Shown here piece by piece: positions 671 to 26,072 of a stretch of 36,462 nt of DNA. Position 1 is the stretch's first letter; every line of letters begins with the position of its first letter. The position numbers were made by a program, and so were the translations under genes. Origin of the DNA: a virus; IMG/VR virus record IMGVR_UViG_3300037010_001507, positions 1 to 36,462 of that record. One strand, 5' to 3'. The notes below the pieces were generated by a model that had not been told where the DNA came from, ran no database searches, and saw only the letters and a list, made by a program, of their open reading frames with translations.

Positions 671-1354
671 TTAAGGCTTTTCTTTTGGTGCGACAGCAAC
701 CGTAGCTGCAATCTCTGCGCCCAAAGATGCGGTGACCATGTTGAGGTAGGACTCTGCACGCTGTTCGTTGCCTGCGTACTCTGAGTCTTTCGAATAGGCT
801 CTGTACATGGTCAGGTTCAGCACATCATCGGCATAAATATCAGGCAGGGATAGGTTGCCCACCACCGCTGTATAGAGCGCGCCATCTGCAGGCTCTGTGA
901 TGTCCGTTGGGTAGGCTGAATACATCACTTCAAGCTGCGCCAAAGCGGTGGCTGGTGGGTAGACATAGAAGGTCTTTGGGTCACGGGTATCGAACATGTA
1001 GTGAAGGATGTTCACCGAGCCCGTCAAGTTGTGCCAACCCGGGGTTTGCGCATCCAGGATTTGGCGCGGAACCAGGCGTACAGCACCCTTGTTTGACGTT
1101 GCCGCCATATTTCGGGTGATCTCGATCAGCTTGGCTGGCGGAGGTGTGAGGCTGGCGTTATCCAGGTCTTGCCTAGACCCTGCTGCCAATGTCATCGTGG
1201 CCGTCGTATTCATGGCATCAGGGCGCACCTTGACGATGGCACGCTGCGCATCGTTGAGCCATCGGACAAGTTCATTGGCAGGCCAGCGAATCGATGTCTG
1301 GTCTTGCAACAAATCGGTTGCGCGATGGATGACGGATTGGGCGGTGATGGTCAT
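671..1354 (-). CDS. Head-tail adaptor-like protein (DUF6682-type)
   Basis: 227 residues with a good Shine-Dalgarno (GGAG seven bases before ATG). The N-terminus (about residues 9-45) has the pattern of a phage adaptor: a predicted helix with LLQDQ, then RWPANELVRWLNDAQRAI, as in head-completion proteins of podovirus-like phages that I associate with DUF6682. The rest is beta-rich. It follows the major capsid gene and two other small head genes in the same leftward operon, which suits a connector or adaptor joining portal and tail. The family assignment is from memory of the motif, so the exact role is uncertain. Confidence 0.6.
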   Translation of the reverse strand: MTITAQSVIHRATDLLQDQTSIRWPANELVRWLNDAQRAIVKVRPDAMNTTATMTLAAGSRQDLDNASLTPPPAKLIEITRNMAATSNKGAVRLVPRQILDAQTPGWHNLTGSVNILHYMFDTRDPKTFYVYPPATALAQLEVMYSAYPTDITEPADGALYTAVVGNLSLPDIYADDVLNLTMYRAYSKDSEYAGNEQRAESYLNMVTASLGAEIAATVAVAPKEKP

Positions 1355-12767: not shown

Positions 12768-13343
12768 TTAGTCGTAGGTGGCCTTTAGCTCACGGGTCAG
12801 GGTGCGGTAATGCGCCTTGATCTCCTTGAGCTCGTCGATGGTGTATTTCTTGGGCTCATGGTGACCCTCCAGCCACTCAACTTGGTCGATGCCGATCTTT
12901 TCTATCAAGGCTTTTCGGTACAGAATCAGGTTTCCTGATAAGTGCACATTACAGGGTTGGCACTGCAAATGGATATTGGATTCCTCAAACCTGAGCTCTG
13001 GTCGCGCGCCAACTGATAGGTAATGGCCTGCATGCTGTTGTCCTTGGTGGTACCTGCCACATGAAATGCATGGGAGGTCAGCATCCCTGGCGCGAATGAA
13101 GGAATTCACCTCCGCCTGGGCTTCTCGCAACCAGTCGGCCCGACTCTTTAGCTTCTCACGCTTGACCGCGTCCGCCTTACGCTCTTCGGTCTTGGCAGCA
13201 TGCTCATCCTTCTCCCGCTTGGCCACCGCCTGAGCCTGGGCACACACTGGCGAACAAACCACCTGGAGCGCATTGCGCGGCTGGAATGCCTGCTTGCATG
13301 TCCGGCACTTCTTTGCTTTGGTAGGTTTGATTGTGTTTGCCAT
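12768..13343 (-). CDS. ninG: NinG family recombination protein (Rap-like)
   Basis: 191 residues from ATG 13343; a GTG at 13349 is an alternative start and neither has a clear Shine-Dalgarno. The N-terminus has a zinc knuckle (CRTCKQAF...CSPVC), then a long charged helix. The C-terminal half carries CISCGR, HAGHYLSVGARPELRF, NIHLQCQPCN and LSGN, which are hallmarks of NinG. In lambda, Rap/NinG is a structure-specific endonuclease acting in recombination. It is the first gene of the leftward late operon, diverging from the HNH region. Confidence 0.88.
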   Translation of the reverse strand: MANTIKPTKAKKCRTCKQAFQPRNALQVVCSPVCAQAQAVAKREKDEHAAKTEERKADAVKREKLKSRADWLREAQAEVNSFIRARDADLPCISCGRYHQGQQHAGHYLSVGARPELRFEESNIHLQCQPCNVHLSGNLILYRKALIEKIGIDQVEWLEGHHEPKKYTIDELKEIKAHYRTLTRELKATYD

Positions 13344-13376
13344 TGGCACAATTTTACAGTACCATCAACACTATTA

Positions 13377-13405
13377 TTGCCGTTCGCTTGACATTGTGCT
13401 AAAAT
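13377..13405 (+). promoter_or_regulatory. Candidate rightward promoter (extended -10)
   Basis: TTGCCG, 17 bp, then TAAAAT with an upstream TG (TGCTAAAAT), giving an extended -10. Transcription would start near 13412 and produce the structured leader of the HNH gene. Confidence 0.4.
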
Positions 13406-13410
13406 TCTTT

Positions 13411-13795
13411 TTGTCAACGCCGCCGCAACGACAACACATGAGGCCTTTTACTCATACGTTCCACCCAGAAATGGGTTTGCTTGGCGGCGGGAACGTAGCA
13501 GTAAAAGGCCTTTTGCGTTTCAGACCGTACTCCACACGATAGCAGTGGCCTTGCATGGGGCGCTTGGAGTTGGACACCGACACACGAAACCACCTTGTGA
13601 TCGACCAGCCTGTTTGCGAGGGACTGGTAAGCACAGTACGGGAAAAGCGGTGAGATGCCCGATGTGTGAAGTGAATCGCTTGCTTACGGCGTGTCGTTAG
13701 TGATGGCGACTCTCTAGGCTCCTTGGACTAAAGGGGCTGGGGACAGGGTGAGGTTTGAATACCTTCACCCTTAGCAGAACTATGGAGAAACAACA
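13411..13795 (+). ncRNA. Ornate structured RNA / leader upstream of the HNH gene
   Basis: About 385 nt with no coding sense and dense pairing. A perfect 12-bp helix (13441-13452 with 13500-13511) encloses an 8-bp helix (13455-13462 with 13490-13497) and a 5-bp hairpin capped by a GAAA loop (13463-13476). CGCCGCC at 13418-13424 pairs with GGCGGCG at 13483-13489 inside that loop, forming a pseudoknot. CCGTACT (13525-13531) pairs with AGTACGG (13635-13641), ACCAG (13604) with CTGGT (13624), and 13746-13754 with 13761-13770. The GNRA loop supports rightward transcription. The layout recalls HEARO/omega-RNA elements next to HNH genes, but I cannot confirm a family. Confidence 0.55.
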
Positions 13796-14533
13796 ATGCA
13801 GGTTCTTGAGTATCTTCAAAGAAAATATGGCGCCACCATGCCATCCTCAATCCTATATGTCGAGGCTAAGATTTTTGGTATTCCAATACCATTAGAAAGT
13901 GGTTGGCTTTCCATTTATGGGAAAACTGAAATATCAGAGGGAATGTCTTACCGGTTACGACAGTCTCTTGAATCTAGAGCTAAGACAGGTCATAAGTATG
14001 CAACCATAGCTTTAGAGATAATGGGTGGGCCTATACAAACACAAACTACACAATCACAGGATAAAACACAAGAGCGAGATAACACCAAATCGCCACCCGC
14101 CATACAAAGCAAGAAACAAGAGCGTAAAGCAGAGCGTAAAGCAAAGCGCGCAGCCGCAAGAGAAATTAAAAAAGAAAAACAAAAAAACCTAACGGAAGTG
14201 CAAATACCAATACGTGCTCCAAATGAGCAATCGGTAAAAGCATTTATCAACAGTCACTCAAAAGTCGATCCAACATCAGACGACTTCTTAAGCACGTTCG
14301 AGTGGAAAGCCACCCGCATGATGGCGTTAAAAAAGTATGGGCCTGTGTGCCAGTGCTGCGGCGCATCACCGAATACCGGAGCCGTGATGAATGTTGATCA
14401 CATTAATCCGCGCAAACTCTTTCCACAGCTCGCGCTTGATGTAAGTAACCTGCAAATTCTGTGCGGAGACTGCAATAAAGGGAAAGGGAACTGGGACATG
14501 ACCGACTGGCGCAAAGAGCCACTAGCAGCATGA
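13796..14533 (+). CDS. HNH endonuclease with unrecognised N-terminal domain
   Basis: 245 residues; GGAG lies before ATG 13796. Residues 1-78 form an unrecognised domain, 80-135 are a very basic, polar linker (many Lys/Arg/Gln), and 165-240 hold a treble-clef HNH nuclease: Cys185/Cys188, Asp201-His202, Asn218, Cys223/Cys226 and the closing NKGKGNW. There is no RuvC domain and no RRxRR-type N-terminus, so it is not a full IscB. The gene is more AT-rich than its neighbours. It may be a homing-type mobile gene, perhaps linked to the structured RNA before it, or a phage packaging or defence nuclease. Confidence 0.85.
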   Translation: MQVLEYLQRKYGATMPSSILYVEAKIFGIPIPLESGWLSIYGKTEISEGMSYRLRQSLESRAKTGHKYATIALEIMGGPIQTQTTQSQDKTQERDNTKSPPAIQSKKQERKAERKAKRAAAREIKKEKQKNLTEVQIPIRAPNEQSVKAFINSHSKVDPTSDDFLSTFEWKATRMMALKKYGPVCQCCGASPNTGAVMNVDHINPRKLFPQLALDVSNLQILCGDCNKGKGNWDMTDWRKEPLAA

Positions 14534-14619
14534 ACAGAGATGGCAAAGAAGAAAACTGGCAATCCCTATCAAACCAGCACGCCAACAGGTATCTGAAAAA
14601 AATCATCGATGTTAATTAA
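14530..14619 (+). CDS. Possible 29-aa peptide coupled to the HNH gene
   Basis: The ATG overlaps the HNH stop as ATGA and the frame ends at TAA 14619. It fills most of the gap to the next gene. The peptide is polar with a C-terminal KKIIDVN. There is no family and no independent ribosome-binding site, so coding is uncertain. Confidence 0.3.
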   Translation: MNRDGKEENWQSLSNQHANRYLKKIIDVN

Positions 14620-14634
14620 CCAAAGGAAACCCCA

Positions 14635-15387
14635 GTGAACGAAATAACAAACCACGCAATCACCATGTCGAGTATTGAGCTTGTCTCGGTCATCAATGAG
14701 ATGCGCGAATACGGTCAAGCTGAATTGCGGCATGACAATTTCATGGCAAAAATTGAAAAGCACCCCGGAATTGACTCGCCTAAATTTTTAGGCCAGTACA
14801 AGGACAGCACAGGCCGCATGTTGAAGTGCTACCACTTGCCAAAACGGGAATGTGAATTAATGGTGATGTCTGAATCGCTGGCAGTGCAAGCCAGGGTGTA
14901 CGACAAGATGACCGCACTAGAAGCTAGGGCGGTGACAGCGCCAAAGCCAGCCGCTACATCGATCCCTGCCGCAAAGGAGTTCCGGGCACTGTTTGGCATT
15001 TGCCGACTGATCGGGCTTGACAAGAATGTATCGGCTATCAGTGCAAATCAAGGCGTCTTGAAGCTCACCGGTACCAATATGCTACAGCTGCTGGGCAGCA
15101 CGTACCTTGAGAACCCAGAGCAAAAGATTTACCTCACACCAACAGAAATCGGGCTGCGACTCGGAAGCATCAGTGGGCGAAGGGTAAACATGCTGCTGGC
15201 AGAGGCTGGTTTGCAGGCAAAGCAAGGCGACAAGTGGGTGCCGCTGAATCCAGCGGAAGGCCTGTTCAAGATTCTCGACACAGGCAAGGCGCACGCGGAT
15301 GGCGCGATGGTTCAGCAGGTCAAGTGGTCCAGTGATGTCATCGACCTGATCCACCAGCCCAAAGAACTGGCAAAGGAGGCCGCATGA
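14635..15387 (+). CDS. Rha-family antirepressor / phage regulatory protein
   Basis: 250 residues. GTG 14635 is chosen because AAAGGA sits eight bases upstream; ATG 14665 is an alternative. The N-terminal Rha-like DNA-binding domain (about 8-90) shows TMSSIELVSVINE, then LRHDNFMAKI and a YHLPKRECELMVM strand-helix. The C-terminal part (about 125-240) contains LTPTEIGLRLG and GRRVNMLLAEAGLQ, as in phage antirepressor C-terminal domains. Such proteins counter the CI repressor or redirect early transcription. It leads the early rightward cluster and overlaps the next start by ATGA. Confidence 0.8.
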   Translation: MNEITNHAITMSSIELVSVINEMREYGQAELRHDNFMAKIEKHPGIDSPKFLGQYKDSTGRMLKCYHLPKRECELMVMSESLAVQARVYDKMTALEARAVTAPKPAATSIPAAKEFRALFGICRLIGLDKNVSAISANQGVLKLTGTNMLQLLGSTYLENPEQKIYLTPTEIGLRLGSISGRRVNMLLAEAGLQAKQGDKWVPLNPAEGLFKILDTGKAHADGAMVQQVKWSSDVIDLIHQPKELAKEAA

Positions 15388-25205: not shown

Positions 25206-25392
25206 TGATGTGATGCAACCGGTGCGTGAACAGCTGACAGCGCACTGGCTCAAGCACATGGAGGCTCATCCAGACTACATCACCGACGCCATCCAGCGCC
25301 ACTTCGCCGACTACCCGGACGACCGCGAGACCATGGGGCCAGCGCTGCGGGTGGAGCTCAAACGAATCAAACAACTGAAGGAAAACCAATGA
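25195..25392 (+). CDS. Small unknown phage protein after dnaB (65 aa)
   Basis: ATG 25195 overlaps the end of dnaB; ATG 25213 is an alternative. Acidic helical protein (HWLKHMEAHPDYITDAIQRHF ... LKRIKQLKENQ). It overlaps the thyX start as ATGA. No family recognised. Confidence 0.55.
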   Translation: MTSDDVMQPVREQLTAHWLKHMEAHPDYITDAIQRHFADYPDDRETMGPALRVELKRIKQLKENQ

Positions 25393-26072
25393 CCAACGCA
25401 ATCAAACTACTCAACCATGGCAGCATTCAACTTGTCGAATCCATGGGAAACGACCTGTCAATTTGCAGAAGTGCCAGGGTTAGCTACAACGCAGAATGGC
25501 GCACCGGAGAAGATGAAGGCAAAGATGCCAAGCTCATCGACTACCTGGTAAAAAACCACCACACGTCCCCGCTTGAATGTGTGCAGTTCACCTTCGATGT
25601 CCGTTGCCCTATCTTTGTGGCGCGCCAGTGGATGCGCCATCGCACTGGAAAATTTAACGAAATTTCAGGTCGGTACTCTGAGTTGCCAGAGGAGTTTTAC
25701 ATCCCTGAAGTCAGCCAGATCACTACCCAGTCTGCCAGTAACAAGCAAATGCGCACCGATACCGAGCACCCGGGCGCTGCAGAGATTCAGGATGCCATCT
25801 CATTTGCCTGTGCTGAGGCCTTCAAGGTCTACCACCAGCTACTCAAGGTGGGTTGCCCACGAGAGCTGGCGCGCGGTGTGCTTCCGCTCAATACCTACAC
25901 CCACTTCTTCTTCACCATGGATTTGCACAACCTGGCCCACTTCCTGCGCCTGCGCCTGCACGAGCACAGCCAGTATGAAATCAGGGTTTATGCCCAGGCC
26001 ATGCTGGCGCTGATCGAACCCATCGTGCCGGTAGCAGTAGCTGCTTTGAAGAAGCACGGCAGTCTGGTATAG
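25389..26072 (+). CDS. thyX: Flavin-dependent thymidylate synthase ThyX
   Basis: 227 residues, the usual size. The ThyX signature is at 83-97: RHRTGKFNEISGRYS. The third position of the RHRxxS motif, normally Ser, is Lys88 here, while Arg83-His84-Arg85, Asn90-Glu91, Ser93 and Arg95-Tyr96 are kept. Further family segments are PLE near 61, PRELARGVLPLNTYT and NLAHFLRLRLHEHSQYEIR. It makes dTMP from dUMP with methylene-tetrahydrofolate and FAD, supporting phage DNA synthesis. It lies in the replication operon. Confidence 0.92.
   Translation: MTNAIKLLNHGSIQLVESMGNDLSICRSARVSYNAEWRTGEDEGKDAKLIDYLVKNHHTSPLECVQFTFDVRCPIFVARQWMRHRTGKFNEISGRYSELPEEFYIPEVSQITTQSASNKQMRTDTEHPGAAEIQDAISFACAEAFKVYHQLLKVGCPRELARGVLPLNTYTHFFFTMDLHNLAHFLRLRLHEHSQYEIRVYAQAMLALIEPIVPVAVAALKKHGSLV

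Follow-up and report, generated by a model that had tools for sequence, protein, structure and literature searches.

What is the role of a large structured RNA that lies directly upstream of an HNH endonuclease gene in a phage genome? The question is raised by IMG/VR virus record IMGVR_UViG_3300037010_001507, a 36.5-kb virus record whose 36,462 nucleotides (nt) are referred to here as the window. A 446-bp non-coding gap between its NinG and HNH genes holds a promoter-like site and a structured RNA of ~370 nt (~13411–13778, plus strand, as are all RNA features given below) that is built from two modules. An initial annotation, made from the sequence alone, had considered three possibilities, namely a new RNA–HNH pair, a reduced RNA-guided element or an intron-like mobile gene. 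We find that some two hundred phage sequences or more, mostly uncultured, carry the RNA, that its fold is conserved among them, and that the gene behind it varies. As to its role, we favor, tentatively and at somewhat less than even chances, a leader RNA of the long rightward operon that would control transcription through the nascent transcript, with HNH as an interchangeable first gene.

A conserved RNA fold in two modules

The region folds more stably than 100 of 100 shuffled sequences (z = −3.66). Its 5′ module, 110 nt long, comprises a hairpin (P1), a kissing pseudoknot (PK), a long hairpin (P2) and a U-rich tract. P1 (13411–13415, TTGTC, with 13430–13434, GACAA) stands at the predicted transcription start, and its loop (13418–13424, CGCCGCC) forms the 7-bp PK with the loop of P2 (13483–13489, GGCGGCG). 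A conserved CAU/AGC internal loop divides P2 into a 13-bp outer stem (13440–13452/13500–13512) and an 8-bp inner stem (13455–13462/13490–13497), which encloses a further helix, P3 (13464–13467/13472–13475), with a GAAA loop. The U-rich tract TTTTGCGTTTC (13511–13521) follows P2 and forms the module boundary; it is weaker in the window than in most relatives. The initial annotation had described the two nested P2 helices, the outer one as 12 bp, the GAAA hairpin and the 7-bp pseudoknot, all of which are present in the window sequence, as is P1.

Compensatory changes, whose absence the initial annotation had regarded as telling against its proposal, are abundant in both modules. For the 5′ module, an alignment of 75 distinct copies (A1) has them at 27 of 38 pairs, with a covariation score of 0.440 versus 0.179 in shuffles (0 of 500 reach the observed score), paired cells at 91.3% versus 77.6%, and slid controls at or below 0.179. 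P1 covaries in this alignment, and seven of the eight PK pairs show compensatory changes with both sides varying; the window row is shifted in A1 at P1 and PK, where the true pairs were read from the window sequence itself. At least five of the seven bases 3′ of P2 are T in 69 of the 75 relatives, and the U-tract looks to be under selection. A covariance model built without the pseudoknot (R1) scores the window, which is in its seed, at 63.5 bits (E = 1.3e-13), and also matches HNH loci outside its seed (L031, L037, L047 and L016). In several relatives (L018, L027, L173, L115, L154 and others) a segment directly after the U-tract is able to pair with the 5′ strand of P1, forming a possible switch helix (P0); this pairing, with a mean score of 14.58 versus 13.40 (standard deviation 0.25) for mismatched partners, is kept only as a lead and is not seen in the window sequence.

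The 3′ module of the window, which we term type A, can be aligned with ~70 others. An alignment of 30 relatives (A2) supports 12 helices that form three pseudoknots, with compensatory changes at 36 of 47 pairs and a score of 0.563 versus 0.188 (0 of 500 shuffles); the helices were partly picked on the same alignment, which favors them, and slid controls at or below 0.116 limit this concern. Pseudoknot A consists of 13526–13528/13536–13538 crossing 13531–13534/13565–13568, with a hairpin (13548–13551/13558–13561) inside it. After a hairpin at 13578–13580/13601–13603 comes pseudoknot B, in which 13604–13610/13621–13628 crosses 13616–13619/13676–13679. Pseudoknot C is formed by a hairpin (13632–13635/13663–13666 and 13639–13642/13658–13661) whose loop (13649–13653, GGTGA) pairs at long range with 13765–13769 (TCACC), near the ribosome-binding site; a small hairpin lies at 13682–13684/13688–13690. 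The GGTG/CACC core of the long-range helix never varies and is therefore not proved by covariation, and one flanking pair covaries. The conserved end of the module (13770–13787; CCCTTGGGGAAxCTATG in relatives) runs into the ribosome-binding site of the HNH gene. A different long-range pairing proposed initially, 13525–13531/13635–13641, is formable in the window but is not part of the conserved fold; we set it aside because it competes with two conserved helices of pseudoknot A (13526–13528/13536–13538 and 13531–13534/13565–13568), and the conserved long-range helix is the one in pseudoknot C.

The RNA is preceded by a promoter-like site (13377–13405, plus strand), in which TTGCCG and TAAAAT are separated by 17 nt and a TG stands before the −10 box, in agreement with the extended −10 promoter recognized in the initial annotation. 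A TANNNT sequence ends 6–7 nt 5′ of P1 in 63 of the 75 A1 copies; given this fixed spacing, P1 is most likely the start of the transcript. To the left of the RNA, the window carries leftward genes for terminase, portal, a weak Q-like match and NinG (12768–13349, minus strand), the last of them before the RNA, and the rightward genes, from 13796 on, encode HNH, anti-repressor-like, DnaB and RecE-like proteins. A thymidylate synthase-like gene (25389–26072, plus strand; PHROG match) also lies in the rightward operon. Of six phages mapped, five (the window, G004, G005, G006 and G007) have the RNA at the head of a mostly same-strand run of ~20 kb, and four (the window, G004, G005 and G006) have a divergent junction at the RNA.

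Distribution, module exchange and first genes

A search with the HNH protein returned 52 viral loci, and in many of them a similarly built hairpin precedes the gene on its own strand. DNA patterns for the conserved part of P2 and for the start of the type-A 3′ module each recurred in at least 120 viral stretches, and for the P2 pattern the flanking stem was missing at only 3 of 139 sites examined among the matches listed. A loose descriptor scan, in which 28 of 46 matches fell on the opposite strand, was excluded from these counts. The 5′ pattern also had eight matches in bacterial genomes, apparently by chance, none of them with flanking stems, and the type-A pattern was absent from 398 Pseudomonadota and 399 Burkholderiales genomes. 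The covariance model gave a single weak match of 31.9 bits in 300 Burkholderiales genomes, a score that the antisense of true copies equally reaches. As viral matches are abundant and bacterial ones apparently chance or lacking, the RNA is essentially confined to phages, nearly all of them uncultured. The window RNA had no blastn match among named phages; the same search with a relative, L027, identified two phage genomes from Manatee Spring (spring water) that carry relatives. By the R1 model, the 5′-module type is single-copy per phage record.

Phages swap the two modules. Among 240 locus pairs whose 5′ modules are at least 92% identical, 60 have unrelated 3′ modules; conversely, where the 3′ modules share at least 88% identity, the 5′ modules fall below 80% in 67 of 184 pairs. 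Some of the loci in these counts are related to one another, and the pairs do not represent independent events. The change-over point lies just 3′ of the U-tract. At four loci (L215, L267, L273 and L290) a type-A 3′ module directly follows an apparent coding sequence, without a promoter-linked 5′ module, and may thus constitute a separate RNA element.

Further features were noted in relatives. Near the 3′ end of the leader, 13 relatives with other 3′ modules (L015, L020, L032, L056, L082, L103, L110, L116, L141, L143, L163, L168 and L171) carry GGCTCC-G followed by 7–8 nt that recur 50–80 nt later after CACC-A/T. These direct repeats are identical inside each phage and differ between phages (common substring of 6.6 nt versus 3.7 nt for mismatched loci); no third strand pairing with them was found (14.66 versus 14.87), and they are absent in the window. 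Hammerhead type II ribozymes occur away from the RNA in L072 (7942–8003, minus strand) and L082 (4325–4382, plus strand). In L204, two tRNA genes (896–967 and 991–1060, plus strand) closely precede the leader RNA, and another part of the contig (5427–5494, plus strand) matches int-alpA RNA.

The HNH gene (13796–14533, plus strand) has its own ribosome-binding site (GGAG, 13784–13787) and encodes a protein of 245 residues, as initially annotated. A helical N-terminal domain (residues ~1–78), for which no family match was found, is joined by a linker to a C-terminal HNH domain (Pfam HNH, residues 185–232) with paired CxxC motifs and a DHI.P core, followed by a conserved KGNWDMTDWR motif. The reported lack of RuvC was borne out: Pfam identifies only HNH, and sequence and fold searches of the PDB, which match the HNH part alone, likewise reveal no RuvC, PLMP or other catalytic domain. 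The HNH domain resembles those of known phage endonucleases, matching phrog_144 (E = 8e-19) and the GVE2 HNH protein (PDB 5h0m; E = 1e-6 by sequence, and the best fold match), although the window protein adds the ~78-residue helical domain and relatives differ in their N-terminal parts, which have been shuffled. In the proteins of L004 to L055, one strongly conserved HNH domain (KGNWDMTDWR) is carried on several unrelated N-terminal parts.

Other genes can take the place of HNH behind the RNA. First genes of at least 85 residues at 192 loci include HNH (31, a count biased by loci that were found via HNH), replication-initiation-like genes (27), RecE-like exonucleases (16) and queuine tRNA-ribosyltransferase/DpdA-like genes (11), and a capsid gene also occurs. 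When only loci found without using HNH are considered, HNH is the first gene in 13 of 175 cases versus 1 of 956 genes farther away (p ~2e-10 by a crude motif test). Near-identical 5′ modules are nevertheless followed by HNH in L018 but by different genes in L126 and L074, and the 3′ module of L126 is nearly the same too. Being enriched 3′ of the RNA yet optional, the HNH gene seems to be a mobile passenger and not a component of the RNA element. It is probably a free-standing homing-type endonuclease gene that settles downstream of the RNA, and the occurrence of otherwise similar loci with and without it is consistent with this.

Candidate roles of the RNA

Under the leader reading, transcription would start at P1, and the 5′ module would fold while the nascent RNA emerges from the polymerase and would set the outcome at the U-tract, where the polymerase would pause, stop or continue. 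The 3′ module with its three pseudoknots would be present in the read-through transcript, ending beside the first ribosome-binding site, and HNH would be an interchangeable first gene. Control of elongation is suggested by the promoter-proximal position of the RNA fold, at the head of a long phage operon, and pausing or termination at P2 by the conservation of the U-tract. That the identity of the first gene appears immaterial, ranging from HNH, replication and RecE-like proteins to DpdA-like and capsid proteins, is consistent with such a role. We infer elongation control by analogy with attenuators or with the put RNA of phage HK022. According to one report (PMC9378689), HK022 putL consists of RNA alone and lies near +1 of an early phage transcript, and put elements are ~70 nt long with two stem-loops, occur twice per phage (putL and putR) and head a long operon. 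The likeness is one of layout, an RNA with two stem-loops near the inferred +1 at the head of a long operon; the 5′ module of the window differs in its 110-nt length, its kissing pseudoknot and its single copy per phage record, and the passages of that report consulted mention neither a pseudoknot nor a second module for put.

Several observations weigh against this interpretation. Ordinary intrinsic terminators have a far smaller loop than P2, a simple terminator scan of the window does not call P2, and the U-tract of the window is short (TTTT). A conserved U-tract would be superfluous in an antiterminator, as would four pseudoknots in an attenuator. In one phage, G008, the same-strand run 3′ of the RNA is short. 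Finally, as the type-A 3′ module is sometimes found without the 5′ module, it would appear to have a job of its own that a leader role leaves unexplained.

The main rival is a stand-alone, trans-acting phage noncoding RNA, either ~110 nt long and ending at the U-tract or comprising the whole 370 nt, that would act in the host in the manner of GOLLD and ROOL; we consider this possible but rather unlikely. Its own promoter, the U-tract, the complex fold with several pseudoknots and the single copy per phage would all suit such an RNA, and GOLLD and ROOL are likewise phage-encoded and unusually elaborate, with pseudoknots reported in ROOL (PMC12286853). They are, however, ~660 to >800 nt long and often near tRNA islands, whereas the present RNA is about half that size and heads operons, and their Rfam models match neither the window nor the relatives scanned. 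Type A, moreover, shows no closing terminator at the RNA 3′ end, and its conserved end continues into the ribosome-binding site of the next gene. Part of some relatives also belongs to a motif that Rfam classes as a small RNA, Betaproteobacteria-1 (RF02932), which matches inside the 3′ part of the leader ~25 nt 3′ of P2 in L082, L103 and L110 and ~90 nt 3′ of it in L015. The type-A module of the window has no RF02932 match even at E of 10, and this 120-nt family extends neither over the 5′ module nor over the pseudoknots that we find in the 3′ module.

Control in cis of first-gene translation, by a riboswitch- or thermometer-like action of the long-range helix near the ribosome-binding site, appears improbable. 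The invariant GGTG/CACC pairing and the conservation of sequence up to the ribosome-binding site argue for it, but the first gene varies so widely that no common ligand logic is visible, and the modules recombine freely.

An RNA–HNH ribonucleoprotein or reduced RNA-guided nuclease, in which the RNA would serve as scaffold or guide, is quite improbable. Part of the original proposal stands, since a new pseudoknotted RNA with a promoter does lie upstream of an HNH family: the covariance model matches in 22 further contigs of that family, and HNH is enriched as first gene. A dedicated pairing is not upheld, as most copies of the RNA have another first gene and no HNH nearby, and near-identical RNAs with and without HNH speak against a reduced RNA-guided element. 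HNH genes linked to the RNA do not share a conserved N-terminal part, searches of the window protein revealed neither RuvC nor any other domain known from RNA-guided nucleases, and no guide-like variable end was seen. HEARO/omega RNA with IscB (RF02033) is likewise a structured RNA that immediately precedes an HNH gene, but no HEARO match was obtained at E up to 10 in 13200–14700, the protein lacks RuvC and PLMP, and the RNA usually occurs without HNH.

A ribozyme or a self-splicing element whose homing gene would be HNH, for which the complex pseudoknotted fold beside an HNH gene and the co-varying direct repeats of relatives with other 3′ modules might be cited, is the least probable of all, given that the RNA begins at its own promoter, interrupts no gene and matches no Rfam group I intron, group II intron or known ribozyme model, and that the window lacks the repeats; of the intron-like mobile gene once proposed, mobility is retained for the HNH gene only.

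Novelty and implications

The Rfam scan proposed in the initial annotation, which named HEARO, introns, GOLLD and ROOL, found no family that matches the window RNA, and at the gathering threshold the window has no Rfam match at all; weak microRNA matches in the scan reflect the long P2 hairpin only. Neither module is in Rfam 15, and we found no description of them in the literature searched, which lay mainly outside subscription journals. As far as tested, then, the RNA family is new; structured phage leaders and ornate phage RNAs are already known, and it is the architecture that is new. We give about even chances to a broader proposal, that these loci define a new class of phage RNA, in which a 5′ module beginning at the exact transcription start and closed by its own kissing interaction is joined through a U-tract to any of several exchangeable multi-pseudoknot modules, which would act on RNA polymerase or stand alone, and of which Betaproteobacteria-1 would be one fragment.

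Mutational tests should be easy to devise, as nature offers many variants with compensatory changes. If the leader reading is true, a main operon in a large group of environmental phages is headed by a modular structured RNA not described before, the orphan motif Betaproteobacteria-1 would be explained as one piece of a larger RNA, and the element would be a directly testable candidate for regulation of phage transcription by RNA without protein, with HK022 put as the known precedent. Alternatively, these loci would represent a further family of ornate phage RNAs besides GOLLD and ROOL.
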